From positions 1-25,111 of the IMG/VR virus record IMGVR_UViG_3300010354_000592: a stretch of DNA of 25,111 bases. One strand, given 5' to 3'. The notes under the pieces were generated by a model, which saw only the letters and a list, made by a program, of their open reading frames with translations, had not been told where the DNA came from and did not search any database. Below, piece after piece: positions 1,196 through 23,504 of this stretch (position 1 is its first letter; each line of letters opens with the position of its first letter). Made by a program: the position numbers and the translations under genes. Origin of the DNA: a virus.

Positions 1196-4100
1196 TTACG
1201 TCAGCGTTCCCAAATCATGATCTATTCGACCTGCAGTTGGGTTCAAACTTAAATCCCATAACCAATTCGTATCGTGCTCCAACGTATTATCTAAAGTTGG
1301 ATAATCACTCAGTAGTGTGTTGCCCGATGTGCTCATATCCATGTTAGCATAGAATGGACTGTCAATGAAAATACCAGTAGGGGTTACTCTAACTTCTAAT
1401 CTATGAGTATCACTATTAGAGGTTGCTACATAGGTGTTGATGCCAACTGTTTGTACAGTATGATTAAAGAATTGAACATTGGGTGTGCCGAATATAATCG
1501 TATTACTCAGCATCGGTGTCATAGTGTTACCGTTTGCTGTGATATTACTAAAACCACCAATAGTGTAGCCTGGAACCCACTGAACAGATCCGTTACCCAC
1601 GGTTGTTAGAACATCATTTACATTACCGCCTGATATTCTTAGATTAGCAACAGAACCAAGATCTGCTATACCGCTAACCGTCAAGTTAGTTATGTTAGCA
1701 TTACCTGTAAAGTCACCTGAAATGTTAGCGCTAATCTTACCCATACGAAGATTAGCATAATCGTTTGGCACTAGAGTTAAGTTAGCATTACGAGTGATAT
1801 CAGTGCTAAGAACAAACTCTTTAGCACTAGTGTCCCAAATAAGACCAGCCATTTGATTTTTAGAACCAGCAGTATTGGCTACGTTGTTCCAATAATGAAA
1901 TAACACTGCTCTATCAGGTACGCTATAACCAGTAAAGTCGCCGCCATTAGCATTAGCACCAATATCAAGATGAGGAATCTGAACATTAAATCTAGTTAAG
2001 AGATTGCCCGTGTTTAGATTGATGTTACCAGGATAATCAACCGTAAAACTTCCGTTTAACACGGTGTTACCGATAACACCTAATTTACCTATGATGTTAG
2101 CATTACCGCCAGTTATTCTGAGAACATCTCCATTAGCAGTATTACTATTACCAGTGAGAAGTAAGAAATTAGCAACACTTAGCGTATTCAGTGTTCCAAC
2201 ACGAGTTATGTTGCTTTGATTAGCAGCATTAGCAGTTAAAATACCGTCAATATACCCAACAGTAAGTGTGCTATTCACACCATTCATGTAAAGATTGCTA
2301 CCCTGAACCATGAATAGATTAGCATTACCCGAAATGTATTCGCCAGGACCACTAAACTGAATTGCTCCTAAACCACCAACAGCACGAACATTACCTGAGA
2401 TTGAAGTTACTGATAGATTACCAATGTTTGCTGATCCAGCACTGAGTGAAGTAAATGATCCGTTAGTAGCAGTAAAGTTAGAAAGATTTGTATTCCCTCG
2501 TACTGTAAGATCGCCTACATTTGCTTCACCAACAACATATAATTCCCATAGATTGCCAACTTGAGTGATATCTTTTTGTACAGGGTATCTAATCAATCCC
2601 CACAGATTACCAGCATTCACGGTATCTACATCTAGATTACCATTACTCGTAATGTTGTTAGCAACGATGTTACCAGTTACATTCAAATGAGTAAGAGTAC
2701 CAACAGTGGTAATGTTAGGCTGATTAGCAGTTACCAACGATCCACCAAGATAGTTAGCATATACTCCATTGCTTAACACATTACCTGCTACCGTGAGATT
2801 ACTCAGCGTACCAACTCGTGTTATATTAGGTTGATTAGGGTTAGTTACTTGATCTGCTAGACTAGCATTATTAGCCCAGTCAGCATAATTTGCTACATAA
2901 GCGCGTCCTGTAATATTACCTGTGATCGTATTGCTAACAGTTAAATCAATCAGCGTACCAACTGAGGTGATATTAGGTTGAGCAGCATCAACAACCTTAT
3001 TAGCAGTAATAGCATGATTAGCATGAACGGCATTAGTAGCGGTGCCTGTTAAATTACCAATAAACGATGGAGCAGTAATTTGTAAATTAGCAACTACTGC
3101 ATAAGCACGAAGCACACTGTCAATAACAATATTTGAGTTAGCAGCAACTGTAATATTACTTCCAACAAATGTGGTATTGCCCTGAATAGTAGTATCACCG
3201 ACTACTGATAATCTAGTTAGCGTACCGGTGCTAGTAATATTTGGTTGATCAGCATTGACAACGGTATTAGCAGTGTTAGCATGATCACTATTAACACTGT
3301 GAATGGCGTTAGTTGCTGTACCTGTTAAATTAGCACGAATAGCATTGGCAACAGTAAGATCAGTTAGCGTACCAACACTAGTAATGTTTGGTTGATGACT
3401 GCTATTAGCACTGAATACGCCTGTGATAACACCTTGAATTAGAATCTCAGCACCAAATACAGCACCTTGATTGATCATTATGGTATCAAATTCAGCATTT
3501 GGAGCGTAAATCGTGTTAGAAACAAGATGATTGCTAACCGTTACATTATAAGCAGCAAGCGTGTTTGAAACTGATAAATTCGAAATCGTACCTGTGTTAG
3601 ATTGAAATACCGTTGAACTAAGATTCAGTATGTTGCCTGTATTAGCAGTAATCGAATCATAACTAGCAGATGAACCTTGAATAGTATTAGCACTAATCGT
3701 ATCAACGCCTGAGATATCAGTGATATTAGCAGATTGTGAATTGATAGAGATAAAGTTACCAGTGTTCGCTCCGAAGTTTTTTAAGATACTAGTATCTTGA
3801 CTATCAGTGATACGAACACTATTAGCATTACTTGTGATAGCAATACCATTACCAAGTTGAAACGATGATCCATAAACATTACGCCAACGTAGTTCAGTTT
3901 CACCAATGTCGTATGTTATATCTTGTTGAGGAGTGATATCAGTGGCAGCGAATACTCGTCCAAGTTCTTCTTGATAAACAAGATTGGCGCTACCATCAAA
4001 TGTACCAGACATTGTGCTATCAGTAAATTGCGTTTGATTACTGTATGCTCCAATGCTTAATATCGTGCCATTCTGGCCCGAGATTATCCAACTACCAATA

Positions 4101-5086
4101 GTTTGCGGACTATTGTTAGCATCAACAGCACTTGTATTACCAGCAAACGATATTGAGTAAAGATTGCTAGTGCTAGCAGTTGATAATGCTGTCCATGTTG
4201 TAGCACTAGTTCCCGTACTACGATATACTGTACCGTTTGACCCTACTACATAGTTGATACGAGTGTTAGCAGTACCATCATTGATGTTAGCACTAACTAC
4301 TTTATTGAATGTTGAAGTAGCATTAGCAGGGCTACGATCAGTCCATGAAACCAAACTGTTTGTGTAAATGATTTTACCCTGATCACCCGCTGCTAGATAA
4401 CCTGTTCCTGTAAATGTAACTGAACGAAGCGTTACATTAGATAACCCTGTATTACTAACTGCCCAACCTGTACCGTTTTGACTGATAATGGCAGTTGAAT
4501 TAGAACCAACAATCACCCAACCGGTTGTGCTACCTAATTCACCGTTCCATACAATATCATGTAGTGTTTGACTGCTACCAACATTCACCGTATTCCACGT
4601 ATTCAAATTGGTGGAGTTGATAACTGTACCAGCATCACCTACTGCCCAATAAGTTGAATTAGCAGTATCATAAGTAATACCGCGAATAGCGTGAGAAGTG
4701 CCTGTATTGAATGTTTGCCAAGTATTACCGTCAGTGGAAATAGCAATATTACCTGATTGTCCTAAAGCAATAACACGATCATTTACAACTGCTAATTTAG
4801 TAAATCTATCTGTAAGCGTTTGACGTTGTTGAAGACCTGCTGTGGATGCACCTGAAAAAACGGTACCACTTTGTGTTATCCCAACCCAGGTGTTAGCAAA
4901 ATAAACAACATTCAGTAGATTGTTTACTCGTTTGAACTGAATACTTGCTTCAGGATCTGCAGCACCAGAACCACCAGTGAAGTTAGCAAAATTGTTGTTG
5001 ATCTTTTCAAATGCTACACGAAGAGGATCCCCGCTACCATCATTTGGCAACACACCGATATTAATTGGTTCATAAAGATAGGTCAT
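1196..5086 (-). CDS. Large repetitive tail fibre with N-terminal propeller-like region
   Basis: This 1296-residue protein starts with a motif common in T4-like fibres (INIGVLPNDGSGDPLRVAF, about residues 8-26, then NNNF). Residues ~55-350 hold repeated segments such as VGDAGTVINSTNLNTW, VGSNGTVYRSTG and SGQNGTILS. They look like blades of a YCF48/BNR-type beta-propeller, which could bind a surface ligand. A YDIG..ELRWRNVY motif follows at ~392. From ~565 to ~970 there are seven copies of a QPNITSVGTLTDLTV-like repeat (near residues 565, 614, 703, 752, 789, 837 and 957), typical of a beta-structured fibre shaft. Composition is rich in Asn, Thr, Ser and Gly, with almost no Cys. The gene is followed directly by the second fibre gene. 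Virion fibre is the likely role; which fibre position it occupies is unknown. Confidence 0.82.
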   Translation of the reverse strand: MTYLYEPINIGVLPNDGSGDPLRVAFEKINNNFANFTGGSGAADPEASIQFKRVNNLLNVVYFANTWVGITQSGTVFSGASTAGLQQRQTLTDRFTKLAVVNDRVIALGQSGNIAISTDGNTWQTFNTGTSHAIRGITYDTANSTYWAVGDAGTVINSTNLNTWNTVNVGSSQTLHDIVWNGELGSTTGWVIVGSNSTAIISQNGTGWAVSNTGLSNVTLRSVTFTGTGYLAAGDQGKIIYTNSLVSWTDRSPANATSTFNKVVSANINDGTANTRINYVVGSNGTVYRSTGTSATTWTALSTASTSNLYSISFAGNTSAVDANNSPQTIGSWIISGQNGTILSIGAYSNQTQFTDSTMSGTFDGSANLVYQEELGRVFAATDITPQQDITYDIGETELRWRNVYGSSFQLGNGIAITSNANSVRITDSQDTSILKNFGANTGNFISINSQSANITDISGVDTISANTIQGSSASYDSITANTGNILNLSSTVFQSNTGTISNLSVSNTLAAYNVTVSNHLVSNTIYAPNAEFDTIMINQGAVFGAEILIQGVITGVFSANSSHQPNITSVGTLTDLTVANAIRANLTGTATNAIHSVNSDHANTANTVVNADQPNITSTGTLTRLSVVGDTTIQGNTTFVGSNITVAANSNIVIDSVLRAYAVVANLQITAPSFIGNLTGTATNAVHANHAITANKVVDAAQPNITSVGTLIDLTVSNTITGNITGRAYVANYADWANNASLADQVTNPNQPNITRVGTLSNLTVAGNVLSNGVYANYLGGSLVTANQPNITTVGTLTHLNVTGNIVANNITSNGNLDVDTVNAGNLWGLIRYPVQKDITQVGNLWELYVVGEANVGDLTVRGNTNLSNFTATNGSFTSLSAGSANIGNLSVTSISGNVRAVGGLGAIQFSGPGEYISGNANLFMVQGSNLYMNGVNSTLTVGYIDGILTANAANQSNITRVGTLNTLSVANFLLLTGNSNTANGDVLRITGGNANIIGKLGVIGNTVLNGSFTVDYPGNINLNTGNLLTRFNVQIPHLDIGANANGGDFTGYSVPDRAVLFHYWNNVANTAGSKNQMAGLIWDTSAKEFVLSTDITRNANLTLVPNDYANLRMGKISANISGDFTGNANITNLTVSGIADLGSVANLRISGGNVNDVLTTVGNGSVQWVPGYTIGGFSNITANGNTMTPMLSNTIIFGTPNVQFFNHTVQTVGINTYVATSNSDTHRLEVRVTPTGIFIDSPFYANMDMSTSGNTLLSDYPTLDNTLEHDTNWLWDLSLNPTAGRIDHDLGTLT

Positions 5087-5539: not shown

Positions 5540-6301
5540 ATGTTATTTAGTAAAAACAGAACACCGTCGGACGTTTATCGTAAAATTTACGAACAACATC
5601 ATGGCCCTATTCCAAAAGATGAATTTGGTAGAACGTTCGAAATTCATCACATCGACAATAATTCGGAAAATAATGACCCATCTAATTTAGTTGCCTTGTC
5701 GATACAAGAACATTATCAAGTTCATTACGAACAAGGAGACTGGGTAGCTTGTTTGGCGATGTCACATAGAATGAATCTATCACCAGAAGAAACATCACGA
5801 TTAGCCAGAAATAACGCCCTAAAACAAATAGAAAATGGCATTAACGCATTTGCCAATTTCACATTCGAAGAGCGAAGTAAGTTAGCCAAAAAAACTAATG
5901 CTGATAGAGTCGCCAATGGCTCACATCATTGGTTAGGCCCTAAGGGCAATAAAGAACGAGTTATGAATGGCACTCATAATTTTTTAGGGAACAACAATCC
6001 ATCTCATCGCCGCATGGCAGATGGCACTCATAATTTTTTAGGATTATCAGCAAAACGTGTTCAGGATGGTACTCACAACTTTTTGAAGGCAACTGGTGCC
6101 AATAATGTAAATTACGATCATACAATTTATCATTTCCTAAATGTCAACACTGGCGAAGAATTGCACACAACTCAACTCGATCTTAGAACAAGATACAATC
6201 TACTTCAAGGCAATTTAAGTGCAGTATGTAGAGGAGTTAAGAAATCATATAAGGGATGGGTAGTAAAAAATAACCCAAGAACGAAAAAAGAATCCGAATA
6301 A
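5540..6301 (+). CDS. HNH homing-type endonuclease
   Basis: This 253-residue protein has an N-terminal HNH nuclease core: PIPKDEFG, then IHHIDNNSENNDPSNLVAL (residues ~35-53), then EHYQVHY. The His pair, the Asn and the following His supply the expected catalytic and metal-binding pattern. The middle carries at least four copies of a short NGTHNFLG-like repeat (residues ~125-180), resembling the small DNA-binding modules of phage HNH enzymes. The C-terminus (DHTIYHFLNVNTGEEL...GWVVKN) matches the C-terminus of the second HNH protein at 10516-11118, so the two are paralogues. A good GAGGAG site precedes the ATG at 5540. The gene sits between the fibre and capsid genes against the local late-gene direction, as expected of an intergenic mobile endonuclease. 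The cleavage site is unknown; gene 23 or its flanks is a candidate. Confidence 0.85.
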   Translation: MLFSKNRTPSDVYRKIYEQHHGPIPKDEFGRTFEIHHIDNNSENNDPSNLVALSIQEHYQVHYEQGDWVACLAMSHRMNLSPEETSRLARNNALKQIENGINAFANFTFEERSKLAKKTNADRVANGSHHWLGPKGNKERVMNGTHNFLGNNNPSHRRMADGTHNFLGLSAKRVQDGTHNFLKATGANNVNYDHTIYHFLNVNTGEELHTTQLDLRTRYNLLQGNLSAVCRGVKKSYKGWVVKNNPRTKKESE

Positions 6302-10264: not shown

Positions 10265-10489
10265 TTATAAACCTGATCCCTGGGAGGGCGGAGCGTACTG
10301 TTTTCTGATTTGTTTTAGATTTTTTGCCTGTTCAAAAGCACGAACATCTCTCATTTTACGAAGCTTACTAATCATACCCAGAGTGAGCTTTTTTGTTTTT
10401 CTAGAGCTACCCCAAGTCAAACGACTGTTATCGTCTTTGACATCTTGTATGCCTTCTTGTGCCGCTTCATAAAATTCTCTTAGTATCAA
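10265..10489 (-). CDS. Small basic head-cluster protein (gp68 position)
   Basis: This is a 74-residue protein with a TTG start; AAGGA lies about 8 bases upstream, and the nearby ATG runs into an immediate stop. The conserved-looking core is KLTLGMISKLRKMRDVRAFE, then KNLKQIRKQYAPP (residues ~34-68), strongly basic and helical. I recall similar short proteins next to portal genes in marine T4-like phages. It sits between portal and gp67-like genes, so it may be a prohead core or vertex component, perhaps a shortened counterpart of T4 gp68 (141 residues). An exact TATAAATA late element lies upstream on the same strand at 10521-10528. Function is inferred from position only. Confidence 0.65.
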   Translation of the reverse strand: MILREFYEAAQEGIQDVKDDNSRLTWGSSRKTKKLTLGMISKLRKMRDVRAFEQAKNLKQIRKQYAPPSQGSGL

Positions 10490-10502
10490 GACATTTTCCT
10501 TG

Positions 10503-10510
10503 TATAAATA
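10503..10510 (+). promoter_or_regulatory. Exact T4-type late promoter TATAAATA for HNH gene
   Basis: This is a perfect match to the T4 late consensus. It lies 13 bases from the ATG at 10516, so transcription would start at or next to the start codon. It forms one arm of an inverted repeat with 10520-10528. Confidence 0.6.
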
Positions 10511-10515
10511 GGTAT

Positions 10516-11118
10516 ATGACTATTTATATCAAAAGACCAAGAAGTCCGATTTATAGAAAAATTTACGAGGAACACTACGGACCTATACCCAAAGATGACC
10601 AGGGTGTGTCATACGACATACATCATATTGACGGGAACCCAATGAACAATGATATTTCCAACTTGGTTGCCGTGTCTAGACAGGAACATTACGATATACA
10701 TTATCACCAAAGAGACTTCTCATCATGTTTTTCAATAGCAAAAAGATTAAATTTATCCAAAGAAGAACTATCCAAGTTAGCATCATTTGCTGGAAAAATA
10801 GGTGGTAGCAAGTCTAGAGAGCGAGTCAAAAATGGAACTCATAATTTGCTACGTAGACCTGACGGTAGTTCATCATCAGGTGACCGTTATAAAAAAGGAA
10901 ATCATCCTTTTCTAAAAATGAAATTTGATGGGCGCAACAATCCTAGATATGATGACACGATCTATATTTTTAGCAATATAGACACAGGTGAAACCGTTGA
11001 AATGACTCAATACGACTTCGTGAAACATTTTTCCCTAGAAAATTACAAAGGAAACATCAACTCAATGATAAAACATGGCAAGTTTAGGCACGTTAAACGA
11101 TGGACCGTGTTAAAATAA
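10516..11118 (+). CDS. HNH homing-type endonuclease, paralogue of the 5540-6301 gene
   Basis: Starting at the ATG at 10516 gives 200 residues beginning MTIYIKRPRSPIYRKIYEEH. The longer reading from 10459 adds 19 residues unlike the paralogue and would cross the promoter. The HNH core is IHHIDGNPMNNDISNLVAV (residues 35-53) followed by EHYDIHY. A single NGTHNLL unit is present, where the paralogue has at least four. The C-terminus (DDTIYIFSNIDTGETVEM...) aligns with that of the paralogue. The gene sits on the opposite strand inside the head cluster, between the portal and the 74-aa gene, and ends only four bases from the portal stop. No Shine-Dalgarno is visible. It is probably an intergenic homing endonuclease that arose from the same source as the other HNH gene. 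Confidence 0.83.
   Translation: MTIYIKRPRSPIYRKIYEEHYGPIPKDDQGVSYDIHHIDGNPMNNDISNLVAVSRQEHYDIHYHQRDFSSCFSIAKRLNLSKEELSKLASFAGKIGGSKSRERVKNGTHNLLRRPDGSSSSGDRYKKGNHPFLKMKFDGRNNPRYDDTIYIFSNIDTGETVEMTQYDFVKHFSLENYKGNINSMIKHGKFRHVKRWTVLK
10521..10528 (-). promoter_or_regulatory. Exact T4-type late promoter TATAAATA for 74-aa gene
   Basis: The reverse strand reads TATAAATA, 32 bases before the TTG start at 10489. It lies inside the first codons of the HNH gene on the other strand. Confidence 0.6.
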
Positions 11119-17288: not shown

Positions 17289-17954
17289 ATGCTTTTACCT
17301 TCAGACTTTGTTCCTACATGGTTATACATCAAGCAACACAATAAAACAGGCTTGAAATACTTTGGAAAGACGATCCGCAAAGATCCTATAAGATACCTAG
17401 GATCAGGAACTTATTGGACCAATCATCTAAATATACACGGTACCGATGTGACAACTATCTGGTGTAGATTATTTACCGATAAAGAAGAATTGACAGAGTA
17501 CGCATTGAATTTTTCCAAAAACAATAACATAGTTGAATCCAAAGAATGGGCCAACCTAGAATATGAAGATGGATTATCTGGATCAGGGCTCAGAAGAAAA
17601 AATTCAATAGAAACTATTGAAAAGAGAAGAATAAAAAATACAGGTAAAAAAAGAACAGATGCCCAACGCAAAAGAATGAGCGATGCACAAAAGAACAGAA
17701 CTCCTCATGTTTATACAGATAATGAAATAGAGGTTATAGGTAATAAGATATCAACTGCTCTTAAAGGAAGAGTAATGTCAGATGACCATAAACAAAAATT
17801 ATCAGAAAGTCTCAAGGGTAAAATGTTAGGAATTGCTAAAACAGAAGAAACAAAACAAAAAATGCGAAAGCCTAAATCACTCGAACATCGTAAGGCTATT
17901 TCAGACGCAAGAAAAGCAAAATATGCGGCATTACGACAATCTAATAACTCATAG
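17289..17954 (+). CDS. GIY-YIG-type homing endonuclease with NUMOD3-like repeats
   Basis: This 221-residue protein has an N-terminal variant GIY-YIG nuclease: WLYIKQHNKTGLKYFGKT (residues 11-28), PIRYLGSGTYWTNHL (33-47) containing the probable catalytic Arg35, and a later EWANLEY segment. The first half of the motif is degenerate (WLYI rather than GIY). Residues ~115-215 contain repeated basic units such as TGKKRTDAQRKRMSDAQK and LKGRVMSDDHKQKLSESLKG. These are typical NUMOD3 DNA-binding modules of homing endonucleases. It lies between the frameshift gene and the non-coding block. No Shine-Dalgarno is visible; a late-type AATAAATA lies 14 bases before the ATG. It is probably a free-standing mobile endonuclease rather than a phage core gene. 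Confidence 0.83.
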   Translation: MLLPSDFVPTWLYIKQHNKTGLKYFGKTIRKDPIRYLGSGTYWTNHLNIHGTDVTTIWCRLFTDKEELTEYALNFSKNNNIVESKEWANLEYEDGLSGSGLRRKNSIETIEKRRIKNTGKKRTDAQRKRMSDAQKNRTPHVYTDNEIEVIGNKISTALKGRVMSDDHKQKLSESLKGKMLGIAKTEETKQKMRKPKSLEHRKAISDARKAKYAALRQSNNS

Positions 17955-18641: not shown

Positions 18642-19196
18642 CTAGGGTATAAGTGTAGTTGAGATATCAGAAATGTCGGATGAACAATAACGTTGAAACT
18701 CTGCTTGATTGGTCATAAAAAACTGATCAATATCAAGAATGCTCCACGAGCCAAAAGAATCACTAATATATTTGATATAAGAACCAGATAGGTTCCATGA
18801 TTTATTTGACTCTACCGCGACCCATTCTGACTTTCGTGTAATTTTGAAAAATAGAACATTACAATCGTCAGGATCGCTAGCCTCTAAGAGTTGCTCAATC
18901 CACTGATCAAGTTGATTACACTTACCTGATAGTAGTTGATGATAGCTAAAATCACTATAACTCTTACATTCAGCATTAAGTAATTTAAAAGACTCTGGGG
19001 GAGTGATATCTCCCTTAGCACTACGAATTTGTTGTTCAGTGAGCACATGCTTACGATAGCGATTAGTTCCACCCACATATGCTCCTGAACCTGTGATGTT
19101 TCTAATAAACTGCTCGTTGTAAATAGCAGTCAATCTTGCTGCAACAGTTCGTTCGTAGTTTGATCCCTTTATCTTACTTTTGCTTGGCATAAACAT
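18642..19196 (-). CDS. PD-(D/E)XK-type nuclease, Holliday-junction-resolvase-like
   Basis: From the ATG at 19196 this is 184 residues. A GTG at 19214 would add six residues but falls inside an inverted repeat, while AGAG lies six bases before 19196; the ATG at 19190 is also possible. The pattern KGSNYER (E15), then KGDI (D63), then NAECKSY (E76, K78) is the PD-(D/E)XK nuclease core as found in archaeal Hjc and phage resolvase-like enzymes. An early GSGAYVGGTNRYRKH segment is likely DNA-contacting. It follows gp46 by 30 bases, downstream of the gp47-gp46 recombination nuclease, so a role in resolving or trimming recombination and replication intermediates is plausible. A restriction-like or host-DNA-degrading nuclease is an alternative. 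Confidence 0.7.
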   Translation of the reverse strand: MFMPSKSKIKGSNYERTVAARLTAIYNEQFIRNITGSGAYVGGTNRYRKHVLTEQQIRSAKGDITPPESFKLLNAECKSYSDFSYHQLLSGKCNQLDQWIEQLLEASDPDDCNVLFFKITRKSEWVAVESNKSWNLSGSYIKYISDSFGSWSILDIDQFFMTNQAEFQRYCSSDISDISTTLIP

Positions 19197-19207
19197 ACTT
19201 ATCTCTA

Positions 19208-19248
19208 TTATCACTGTGCTAAAAATTTATTCTTCAGCACAGTGATAA
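19208..19248 (-). repeat. 13-bp perfect inverted repeat at the end of gp46
   Basis: TTATCACTGTGCT (19208-19220) and AGCACAGTGATAA (19236-19248) flank a 15-base loop that contains the gp46 stop codon. On the mRNA the hairpin ends just before the AGAG site of the downstream nuclease. There is no T-run. It may be a processing, stability or translational-control element. Confidence 0.7.
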
Positions 19249-22200
19249 CTACTATACCCTCCTTCTTTTACTACTCGTAGAATACTACTAACTCGACTGC
19301 TAAGTTCATCACGATGACTTACAAGCCAAATGCTCTTACTTCTACGTCGAGTCATATCTTTGAGCAAAGCAATACTTGACTCTACTCCTGCTGTATCAAG
19401 TCCATTGTCTATGAGTTCATCAACAAATAGAACATTGATAGGAGCATATAAACTTTCCCATACATCACGAAAAGCAAAACTCAATCCAATGATCAGTCTA
19501 GTACGCTCACCACGACTAAGATTATCAAAGTCAAGATCACGACCAAGTTCAGTGATTTCAACCGTTAGATCGTTCTGAAATACTACTTGATGAGGCAAGC
19601 CCATTTTATCTAGATAGTGAGTCAAACGATTGTTAAGATAACTGAGATTCTGTTCAATGATTCGCTTTCTAACAAAACTACGCTTGTTTGTTAAGAGATC
19701 AAGTAAGAAATCTTGATGTTGAAGCACTCGATTAAGTCGATTGATTTCTTCGTAGTCCACTGTTTGAACAGCGTTTTGCTCCATATCTTCAATCTGTTCA
19801 TGATATGGATCTTGATCTGCAAGTCGTCGTTCTAAATCATCGGCTAGTTTGGTTACTTGACTTTGATGCTTCAGTGCTAACTCTAGTGTATCGTAATGAA
19901 CTCGTGGAACTTGTCCCAACTCGCCCACTGCTGCTAGATCTTGTGCATGCTGCTTATCAGTATTAGTTCGTTCGGTCTCATACTCTGAAATGGTAGTTTC
20001 TAGATACTGTACTAGTTCTAGATGTTTAGTTCTAGCAGTGTCTAGTTTGTTCTTGTGCCCAAGAGCCAACTCTAGTGATTCGTAATGTACTCTAGGCGCA
20101 GTGCCCAGTTTGCCCAACGATTTAATATGCTCATCATGTTCTAAAAACTGCGATTCAGCGCTAAGATAACTTAAACTGACTTCTTGTAGTTGTTTGTGCT
20201 TGCCACGTAAGATAGTTTCATGCTGATCATCATGTAGAGCTTGACCACAAGCATAACACTGATGATTCTCTAACTTGGCTATCTCTGCTTCTAGCTTATG
20301 ACGATTGTTATTAAGTTCAGTCATATGCTTTCGAGCACTGTCTCTCCATTTTTTAGCTTCGATAAGCGTCTTGTTGTTATCGTTCCAAGTTTGTAGTAGT
20401 CTGTGATTCTCTACTTCTTGCTCGATAACAATACTCTCTAAACTGGTTATAATATCTAACTGTGATTTAATATCTTTCTTAATCGCTGCTACTGAGCGAA
20501 CATGCTTGCTATCCAGTGTAGCACGAGTGCTCGTATATCTGGCTGTAATGTTAGCTATCTCAGATCGCTTGTTATTATAAGTTTCAAGATCACGATGTGA
20601 GATAATCTCTTGATCGATATCAATTTTAGTAAGAGCAGTTAGTTCTTCAGTAAGATTCATGACATCCTGATCGCGAGTAGCAGTCCACAGTCGCTGACGT
20701 TTCTTTAAGTTGTCGATCTGTTCTACAATACGACGATTGGCTTCTTCTAGACCCTTGATACGATACTGTTCGCTCTGAATATTATCACGAGTTTGTTTGT
20801 TTAGCTCTTTGATCTTTTCTGCTCGCTCACTCAATAACGTAATACCCAGTAACTGCTCAATGATCTTTCGCTGATCAGCAGCACGAAGCGCTAAGAAGGG
20901 TTCATTATAAGTATTAAGAGCAATAATTTGCTTGAACATCTCGGGTTCCATTTGTAACAAACGTTCTATTTGCTCTTGAGTTTCACGACTATCGCCCTGA
21001 CTGTCATCCACAATCTGTTGTTCTTGATTGTTGATAAAGAACTTTAACACATTTGGCTTACGACCACGAATGATTTTATAATCAACTCCATTAACTTCGA
21101 ACTCTACTGTACTAAGCATGTTCTTTTGATTGGTTCTATTAATTAGATTGTCTTTACGAATATTATTAATAGCAGTGCCAAACAGCGCATAACTGAGTCC
21201 CTGTATAATCGATGTATTGTGTGTTACTACATAGTTATCAGTAACATACAAATGATCGGGATGATCGATATAAATACACTGACATTCACTATCTTCTATT
21301 CTATCAATGGCAGTTATTTGTAATCTAAGTTGATTTTTATACTGATATGATTCTGATATTTTGTTCTTTTTTCTGTTTAAGTAAAACAGATCTCGTGGGT
21401 TATGATATCTAATTCTAACGATATATGCTGTTTTGCCCTGTCTAACTTCCCCTAGATATGAGAATCTTGGGGCTTTTTCTGTGATTCTTGCTAAGCCTCC
21501 AATACTTCGAACTAGATCTGCTACATCTAATGCCAGTTGTTTACTAGTAGTGCAATAAGATATAGAACCAGTTCTATCAACAGTTCCGTCAGTATCTAAT
21601 AATCCTTGAAGCAGTTCTATTTTCTGTCTAACACTGATGTTTTTGTACTGATTCGGAATGAACTTGTCTTCGCTATTGACATTCAAGTTCAAATCCGCGA
21701 TATATTTTCTAAAAGGATGAAGAATCTTTTTAGGATGGTGTTGCTTCTCGTTCATGACAACACGATACGAAATTTTTTCACGAGTAGTTGTATGAACCTG
21801 TTTTAGAGAACAGTTGATCAACTGAAGTTCTTTGTCTACTCTAGAAACTATCTCAGAATCACAAGACGTTATTCCCGGAGACGATCTAAGATTTCCGTCC
21901 CCTATCATAGCACCTAGTGTGTAGGGTGCTATTGAAACAACAGAATCTAGTGATTCGGTAGGTGTAAATAATGGAACATACAGATAATGTAACTGTTTAC
22001 TCTTCTTGTTACGATTACTATCAAGTAAATCACCGATCTCTTTAGTTGTTAAGATTCGTGTATGATTCTTATCATTCTTGTTTCTAAACTGATGACTATA
22101 GATGTTCCATAAATGTTCTTCGCTGGCCTCACATGTTCTTCCATCCTTAAATGTAAGACGATATACAGGAATTTTACCTTGAGGATAAATTCCTAGAACA

Positions 22201-22454
22201 GTAGATGATTGACCGTCATGTGCTATCACTCGATCCCCAACTTGTATATCTTTCATCAGAGTCCATCCTGATTCTGTAAGAATTTTACTAGTCAGAGGTT
22301 GAGCTTTCCCGGTACCATTCCTAGCACCTTCTCCGCCCAAGTCTAAGTTCTCGCCAAGAATCAATGTTAGATCCTGACGATCAAAATCAATAGTCTGTGT
22401 TACTTGTCCAATGCTTAAAAAGTTGCGCAAACTAAGTGTTTTAATTTTAATCAT
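19227..22454 (-). CDS. 46: Recombination endonuclease subunit gp46 (Rad50/SbcC-like), intein-interrupted
   Basis: The 1075-residue precursor is about 712 residues once residues 51-413 (the intein) are removed. The SMC/Rad50-type ATPase is clear. It shows LSLRNFLSIG at the start, the Walker A loop GARNGTGK|TS split by the intein after Lys50, a coiled coil with a zinc hook CYAC (C733/C736), signature LSRGE (979-983), Walker B VLFVDE (1008-1013), and VSHRDE. With gp47 it resects DNA ends for recombination-dependent replication and host DNA breakdown. The start overlaps the gp47 stop as ATGA, and with no Shine-Dalgarno this implies translational coupling. The host part is longer than T4 gp46 (560). 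Residues ~780-800 and ~843-863 repeat the same PRVHY..LELAL block. Confidence 0.95.
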   Translation of the reverse strand: MIKIKTLSLRNFLSIGQVTQTIDFDRQDLTLILGENLDLGGEGARNGTGKAQPLTSKILTESGWTLMKDIQVGDRVIAHDGQSSTVLGIYPQGKIPVYRLTFKDGRTCEASEEHLWNIYSHQFRNKNDKNHTRILTTKEIGDLLDSNRNKKSKQLHYLYVPLFTPTESLDSVVSIAPYTLGAMIGDGNLRSSPGITSCDSEIVSRVDKELQLINCSLKQVHTTTREKISYRVVMNEKQHHPKKILHPFRKYIADLNLNVNSEDKFIPNQYKNISVRQKIELLQGLLDTDGTVDRTGSISYCTTSKQLALDVADLVRSIGGLARITEKAPRFSYLGEVRQGKTAYIVRIRYHNPRDLFYLNRKKNKISESYQYKNQLRLQITAIDRIEDSECQCIYIDHPDHLYVTDNYVVTHNTSIIQGLSYALFGTAINNIRKDNLINRTNQKNMLSTVEFEVNGVDYKIIRGRKPNVLKFFINNQEQQIVDDSQGDSRETQEQIERLLQMEPEMFKQIIALNTYNEPFLALRAADQRKIIEQLLGITLLSERAEKIKELNKQTRDNIQSEQYRIKGLEEANRRIVEQIDNLKKRQRLWTATRDQDVMNLTEELTALTKIDIDQEIISHRDLETYNNKRSEIANITARYTSTRATLDSKHVRSVAAIKKDIKSQLDIITSLESIVIEQEVENHRLLQTWNDNNKTLIEAKKWRDSARKHMTELNNNRHKLEAEIAKLENHQCYACGQALHDDQHETILRGKHKQLQEVSLSYLSAESQFLEHDEHIKSLGKLGTAPRVHYESLELALGHKNKLDTARTKHLELVQYLETTISEYETERTNTDKQHAQDLAAVGELGQVPRVHYDTLELALKHQSQVTKLADDLERRLADQDPYHEQIEDMEQNAVQTVDYEEINRLNRVLQHQDFLLDLLTNKRSFVRKRIIEQNLSYLNNRLTHYLDKMGLPHQVVFQNDLTVEITELGRDLDFDNLSRGERTRLIIGLSFAFRDVWESLYAPINVLFVDELIDNGLDTAGVESSIALLKDMTRRRSKSIWLVSHRDELSSRVSSILRVVKEGGYSSYHCAEE
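21216..22304 (-). mobile_element. Class-3-like intein with LAGLIDADG homing endonuclease in gp46
   Basis: 363 residues interrupt gp46 between Lys50 and the Thr that completes Walker A. The insert starts AQPLTSKILTESGW, so residue 1 is Ala, not Cys or Ser, and it ends VVTHN before Thr. Hint-domain blocks are visible: VGDRV (22-26), EEHLW with His64 and Trp66 in block B, and the CQC-containing block F near 341-343. Trp66, Cys343 and Thr361 match the W-C-T triad that defines class 3 inteins, which splice without an N-terminal nucleophile. LGAMIGDG (130-137) and LLQGLLDTDG (231-240) are the two LAGLIDADG motifs, both keeping the acidic residue, so the endonuclease looks intact. ATP binding by gp46 requires splicing. 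Confidence 0.9.
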
Positions 22455-23467
22455 AGATTTTTATAAATTTCAAGTAGTAATCGTTTGTCAAAATTGCCCT
22501 CTTGTAAACTTTCAATTTGACTTTGTACTATACTATCTACGCTTTCAAATGTCAAGTCACCAAGCTCACTTTCAATAGATTCTATATTCTGTTTGACAGG
22601 TATCAACTGCATTTCTCTAACCGAGTACTCGGGCATAAGCTTTTCTTTAATGAATACTGACTCTTCGAATGAGATATCAATATCCAAGTTAACTCTACAA
22701 TGTAGTTTTGATCTTAGCAAACGTTCGGGCTGATCTAAAATTTGGCTAAGAGTAAACACCCGATATCGTGGCTGCTCTTCCCATGTAATGTATTCAGGAT
22801 CTTCGTCCCATTCTAATACCATCATGCCACGAGCATCATCGCCAGCGTCTCCGTAGTTATGAGGAAACGCATTGCCAATGTACGTAACGTTCTTTTTGTG
22901 CTGTCTAAAGTGAAAATGTCCGCTAAACACTCGTTCGAATCCTACTAAATGCTCACTATTGACTTCACCGTGATCTGGCATTTCTATGTTAGCATTCATT
23001 CTAAAACTTGGCAGTTCAAAGTGTCCAAACAGATACTTACCGCTTAGTCTTTGTAATCGCTTGTAATCATCGCCCACCAACCAGGGAGCAATGACCACGT
23101 CGCCGAACTCAATCCAATCATTACAAATCCTAACTCTATCCAAGTGCTTTGCCCATTCAACACTCTGTACATCACGACGATCGCGATAGTACAAATCATG
23201 ATTACCGACAATAAAAATAACTTGATCGAACGCTTCATTTAACTTTTCCAATGCTCTTATACTATAGTGTAATGTGTGAATACTAAGACTACTACGATTG
23301 TGATGCCAATCCCCAAGAAAGAAACAAGTTTCACAATTTCGTGTCTTAGCAGTTTTTATAAACCAATCAATGAAGTCCATACAGTCGTTATTGTGGGTAA
23401 CACTGTTGTTCTTAAGCCCCCAATGAATGTCCGTGAATACTGCTGCTCGTTTGAATAAATTAGTCAT
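22451..23467 (-). CDS. 47: Recombination endonuclease subunit gp47 (Mre11/SbcD-like)
   Basis: From the ATG at 23467 this is 338 residues; an in-frame TTG three codons upstream would lie inside the promoter. Metallophosphoesterase motifs occur in order: TDIHWG, LGDWHHNRSS, VGNHDLY, FGHFE and SGHFHFR. These bind two Mn ions in the active site. The protein pairs with gp46 to make the Mre11-Rad50-type nuclease complex that processes DNA ends. Length is close to T4 gp47 (339). Its stop overlaps the gp46 start (ATGA), so equimolar production by coupling is likely. Upstream is a host-type promoter whose predicted start is within a few bases of the ATG, implying a leaderless or near-leaderless message. 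Confidence 0.96.
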   Translation of the reverse strand: MTNLFKRAAVFTDIHWGLKNNSVTHNNDCMDFIDWFIKTAKTRNCETCFFLGDWHHNRSSLSIHTLHYSIRALEKLNEAFDQVIFIVGNHDLYYRDRRDVQSVEWAKHLDRVRICNDWIEFGDVVIAPWLVGDDYKRLQRLSGKYLFGHFELPSFRMNANIEMPDHGEVNSEHLVGFERVFSGHFHFRQHKKNVTYIGNAFPHNYGDAGDDARGMMVLEWDEDPEYITWEEQPRYRVFTLSQILDQPERLLRSKLHCRVNLDIDISFEESVFIKEKLMPEYSVREMQLIPVKQNIESIESELGDLTFESVDSIVQSQIESLQEGNFDKRLLLEIYKNL

Positions 23468-23504
23468 AGCATACAAATATACAGTATGCTATAGAAAAAG
23501 TCAA
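23465..23504 (-). promoter_or_regulatory. Host-type (sigma70) promoter for gp47-gp46 with inverted repeat
   Basis: On the reverse strand TTGACT (23499-23504), a 17-base spacer and TATATT (23476-23481) form a good sigma70 promoter. A perfect nine-bp inverted repeat (ATAGCATAC, 23466-23474; GTATGCTAT, 23484-23492) brackets the -10 element, as a repressor operator would. One arm overlaps the start codon. Confidence 0.75.

Follow-up and report, generated by a model that had tools for sequence, protein, structure and literature searches.

The gp46 gene in the stretch of viral DNA analysed here (the window, 25,111 nucleotides, from a source record that is a viral fragment of 25 kb) carries in its Walker A motif, between Lys50 and Thr51, what is very probably a mobile class 3 intein that includes a LAGLIDADG homing endonuclease. 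The set of splicing residues, the predicted fold, the LAGLIDADG aspartates and the signal of purifying selection together argue that the intein belongs to class 3 and that its endonuclease is apparently intact. As a kind, the class 3 intein is known, and the window adds another member. A mild surprise is how frequent class 3 inteins are in the P-loop of gp46; a gp46 intein is not described in PMC5259590, PMC2988022 or PMC7824862, within a partial, open-access literature search.

The gp46 gene and the boundaries of the insert

The gp46 precursor gene (19227..22454, minus strand) encodes an SbcC/Rad50-like recombination nuclease ATPase of 1075 aa (phrog_77, E 3.7e-91). Directly upstream, with an overlap of 4 nt, lies the gene of gp47, the SbcD/Mre11-like nuclease subunit (22451..23476, minus strand; phrog_100, E 8.1e-65), and it was as an ABC-type ATPase adjoining a gp47/SbcD-like nuclease gene that the protein was assigned to the gp46 family. 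A gene for a late sigma factor (phrog_12791) comes before that of gp47. Directly downstream of gp46 there is a PDDEXK_15 / RusA-like resolvase gene (window 18642-19214, minus strand), perhaps the Holliday junction resolvase of the recombination operon. Elsewhere in the window, a protein of 1296 aa (1196-5086, minus strand) contains many repeats like 'NQPNITSVGTLTDLTV' and has no PHROG match; it is probably tail-fibre-like.

The insert (21216..22304, minus strand) extends from Ala1 to Asn363 and makes up residues 51-413 of the precursor, in frame and without a stop codon. It separates an N-extein of 50 aa (22305..22454, minus strand), ending in the first part of Walker A (...RNGTGK), from a C-extein of 662 aa (19230..21215, minus strand, excluding the stop codon at 19227-19229), the first residue of which is the Walker A threonine, Thr(+1). 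The insertion point thus falls between the Lys and Thr of the motif (GTGK|T), which are Lys50 and Thr51 in the numbering of the spliced protein, predicted to be 712 aa long. The first-pass annotation had proposed that empty gp46 alleles of related phages be examined for the insertion site, and GK|T was uninterrupted in every one of the 78 gp46 relatives from IMG/VR that could be read at this point. The boundaries of the insert can be considered exact because its two sides are contiguous in these homologues, for example in GARNGTGKTSLIQGLSYALFG. A tblastn search with the insert retrieved 761 phage records (best match 40% identity, E 8e-76), and a chance origin of the pattern is excluded. The Pfam profile Intein_splicing (PF14890) did not match the window's own record, although other lines of evidence identify the intein clearly.

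Splicing residues, fold and endonuclease

The N-terminal splicing blocks A-B (22089..22304, minus strand) cover intein residues 1-72 with His64 and Trp66, and the C-terminal blocks F-G (21216..21329, minus strand) cover residues 326-363 with Cys343, Thr361, His362 and Asn363. Instead of a Cys, Ser or Thr nucleophile, the first residue is Ala, as it is in 23 of the 24 phage inteins that were aligned. In a phmmer search against PDB sequences, DnaBi1 of Mycobacterium smegmatis (6bs8, E 7e-10) came first and the engineered gp41-1 (6riz) second, followed by DnaB1 of M. chimaera (6rix, 6riy). The mycobacterial inteins share the class 3 splicing domain with the window intein: His64, Trp66, Cys343 and Thr361 align with His65, Trp67, Cys118 and Thr137 of DnaBi1 (6bs8) and with His65, Trp67, Cys124 and Thr143 of MchDnaB1 (6rix), residues that form the WCT motif and the catalytic triad of these proteins (PMC6195587; PMC7664689). 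The block B Trp is found in His64-Leu-Trp66, which lies on His65-x-Trp67 of DnaBi1 and MchDnaB1, the catalytic Cys343 occupies position 4 of block F, and Thr361 occupies position 5 of block G, just before His362-Asn363. A placement of Cys343 outside block F position 4, which would have spoken against class 3, was therefore not seen. None of the 24 inteins departs from His64, Cys343, Thr361, His362 or Asn363, and 23 of them have Trp66. Cys343 is taken as the block F cysteine because the neighbouring Cys341, two residues away, is a Cys in only 9 of the 24. Position 61 of block B is Ser; DnaBi1 has there the Asp of the DxxH motif, and the position varies widely among relatives.

The intein was also modelled with AlphaFold2 from the 24-intein alignment and without extein residues (pLDDT 91.3, pTM 0.90). 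In VIA-align comparisons the model matched PI-SceI (1jva) over its full length (Z 28.0, 3.5 Å over 332 residues), and its splicing domain matched the class 3 intein DnaBi1 (6bs8_C) with Z 19.6 and 1.4 Å over 123 residues at 32% identity. Among matches to the splicing domain only, 6bs8 was the best, the next rows being less than 1 Z unit away. The predicted model has the horseshoe beta fold of the HINT domain, superposing on solved inteins. Taken together, the alignment, the structure prediction and the relatives support both the Walker A loop insertion in gp46 and the class 3 assignment made in the first-pass annotation, and its coordinates, W66, C343 and T361-H362-N363 were all correct.

A LAGLIDADG homing endonuclease region (21405..21944, minus strand; intein residues about 121-300) matches LAGLIDADG_3 (PF14528, E 1.1e-7) above the Pfam cut-off. 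Block C reads LGAMIGDGN with D136 and block E reads LLQGLLDTDGT with D239. In the model, two LAGLIDADG helices (H127-136 and H225-239) end at these acidic residues, which are kept in 23 (D136) and 22 (D239) of the 24 aligned phage inteins. The earlier statement that both motifs retain their acidic residues thus holds, and judging from the motifs and the model, the homing endonuclease is apparently intact.

Other endonuclease genes were seen in the window. Two free-standing HNH_3 genes (5540-6301 and 10459-11118, both plus strand), with similar N-termini, are opposite in strand to the neighbouring head genes and are likely further mobile elements. An ORF containing NUMOD3 (17289-17954, plus strand) is probably a third free-standing homing endonuclease.

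Occupancy and origins of the P-loop site

The nearest annotated phage inteins, with 36-40% identity over the full intein, are inserted at GK|T in P-loop proteins other than gp46, namely DarB-like/SNF2 helicases (PhiPA3, phiLBG22), terminases (TerL of N1M2 and TaPaz) and further helicases (LucasX), including replicative ones. They have the insertion point, the WCT set and the LAGLIDADG domain in common with the window intein and differ from it in the host protein. The TerL1-a inteins of mycobacteriophages, the only phages covered by PMC5050341, likewise separate the Lys and Thr that are invariant in the P-loop, an arrangement that has been called a 'classic' P-loop insertion, and here the host is a terminase. 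DnaBi1 is also a P-loop insertion, but it is a mini-intein without an endonuclease (PMC6195587), whereas the window intein has a LAGLIDADG domain.

The first-pass annotation implied that an intein at this place is rare, which proved wrong. When IMG/VR was scanned for NGxGK|AQP, 52 stretches were obtained and a complete intein could be excised from 27; in 26 of the 27 the exteins matched the window's gp46, although several are duplicates and one (L148) is the Lactobacillus phage LfeInf itself. Class 3 inteins were thus found at the GK|T site of gp46 in more than 20 IMG/VR contigs as well as in Salicola phage SCTP-2 and phage LfeInf, so the gp46 P-loop is a populated site and not a unique find. 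One of them (L155) has the same host, site and class and is about 67% identical to the window intein. The other gp46/SbcC inteins, from about 20 loci, are mostly 39-46% and in a few cases less than 30% identical to it, and some have, unlike the window intein, a decayed or shortened endonuclease. LfeInf (KP054477, annotated as 'putative intein') and SCTP-2 gp46 (MF360958) carry their inteins at the GK|T/S site of an SbcC-like protein, as in the window, with 28-29% identity. In LfeInf, however, Phe and Ser replace the class 3 Trp and Thr, giving F-C-S where the window has W-C-T, and the SCTP-2 intein is without the LAGLIDADG Asp residues, both of which are kept in the window.

Departures from WCT were observed in the LfeInf SbcC intein (L148 / L002) and in the gp46-site intein L145, in which Phe replaces Trp; neither has lost the block F Cys or Ala1. 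In L110, L130, L146, L150 and SCTP-2 (L001) the acidic LAGLIDADG residues are lost or changed or the endonuclease is shortened, and a decayed homing endonuclease stands beside an intact WCT Trp, Cys and Thr. A related phage intein (L083:3501-4571) has one in-frame stop soon after block B, which reflects either decay of this copy or an error in sequencing.

The comparison with L155 (67.5% amino acid identity; dN 0.26, synonymous sites saturated) indicates purifying selection on the intein at the sequence level, and the gp46 extein is likewise under purifying selection. Identity is 71% and 79% in the splicing blocks, 68% in the endonuclease and 56-57% in the linkers. In the intein tree these two inteins are sisters with a support of 100/100. 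Their gp46 hosts are only 53% identical, while the window host and an empty allele (L033) are 55% identical, and in the host tree empty alleles fall between the window and L155 with modest support. This discordance fits horizontal spread or repeated loss, and the distribution of inteins among gp46 genes is sporadic. The gp46 inteins did not form one clade in the intein tree, where well-supported branches force at least four changes; the tree has long branches, and L121 is labelled gp46-like from its motif only. A test on the tree rejected a single-clade origin for the gp46 inteins as a whole (p-AU 0.001), and because of this rejection the gp46 P-loop was probably colonised more than once. In the flanks, a comparison of 19 distinct filled with 51 distinct empty gp46 alleles detected no co-conversion tract or extended DNA target beyond coding constraint; synonymous positions of the flanks vary.

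Splicing, homing and regulation

From the class 3 pathway (PMC7664689, PMC6195587) we infer how the gp46 intein would splice; DNA cleavage and homing are likewise predictions. After translation, Cys343 would attack the Lys50-Ala1 bond and take over the N-extein, and the acyl group would then move to Thr(+1) of the C-extein. Cyclisation of Asn363, assisted by His362, would follow, and ligation of the exteins to ...GTGKTS... would give back the ATPase. In homing, the endonuclease would cut within the P-loop codons of gp46 genes without the insert, and recombination would then spread the element.

The insert has to be removed to restore the P-loop, and its position makes gp46 activity dependent on splicing. 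It was from this that the earlier annotation concluded that splicing controls the recombination nuclease. In a domesticated intein of this kind, conditional splicing, sensitive for example to redox state or DNA damage, would set the timing of gp46/gp47 activity. In M. smegmatis, oxidation of the catalytic Cys indeed inhibits the class 3 intein DnaBi1 (PMC6195587), and the window intein has a second cysteine, Cys341, near Cys343. Nevertheless, the redox partner Cys48 of DnaBi1 is replaced by Val47, Cys341 is not conserved, close gp46 relatives carry no intein, and the endonuclease has been kept as expected of a mobile selfish element. The claim of control is unsupported, and we consider domestication very unlikely; a selfish passenger is the better description of the gp46 intein.

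A pseudo-intein that no longer splices and leaves gp46 dead in the window phage is more improbable still. Splicing of the window intein is a prediction, and the endonuclease motifs have decayed in some of the relatives described above, but here all catalytic residues are intact in an open frame, conservation against L155 is highest in the splicing blocks, and selection maintains the extein as well. A class 1 or class 2 route with an incidental W-C-T set can practically be dismissed: Thr(+1) and the block G His-Asn are common to other classes, but Ala1 cannot act as a nucleophile, each of W, C and T has its counterpart in the solved class 3 inteins, C343, T361 and H64 are invariant among the 24 relatives, and the best structural match to the splicing domain only is class 3 DnaBi1.

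A further and rather doubtful idea is that class 3 inteins residing in the terminase and helicase P-loops of phages have moved several times from there into that of gp46, and that homing is coupled to itself. The endonuclease would break the recipient gp46, and the resection would need gp46/gp47, which could be donor-derived only after the intein splices out.

The class 3 intein added by these results is well preserved and probably mobile, and its host is a DNA-recombination ATPase; the results also point to the P-loop of gp46 as a frequent and probably repeatedly colonised site. They speak for a spread of class 3 inteins from one phage ATPase to another via the conserved P-loop, and the sets of filled and empty gp46 alleles offer a test bed for homing and P-loop hopping.
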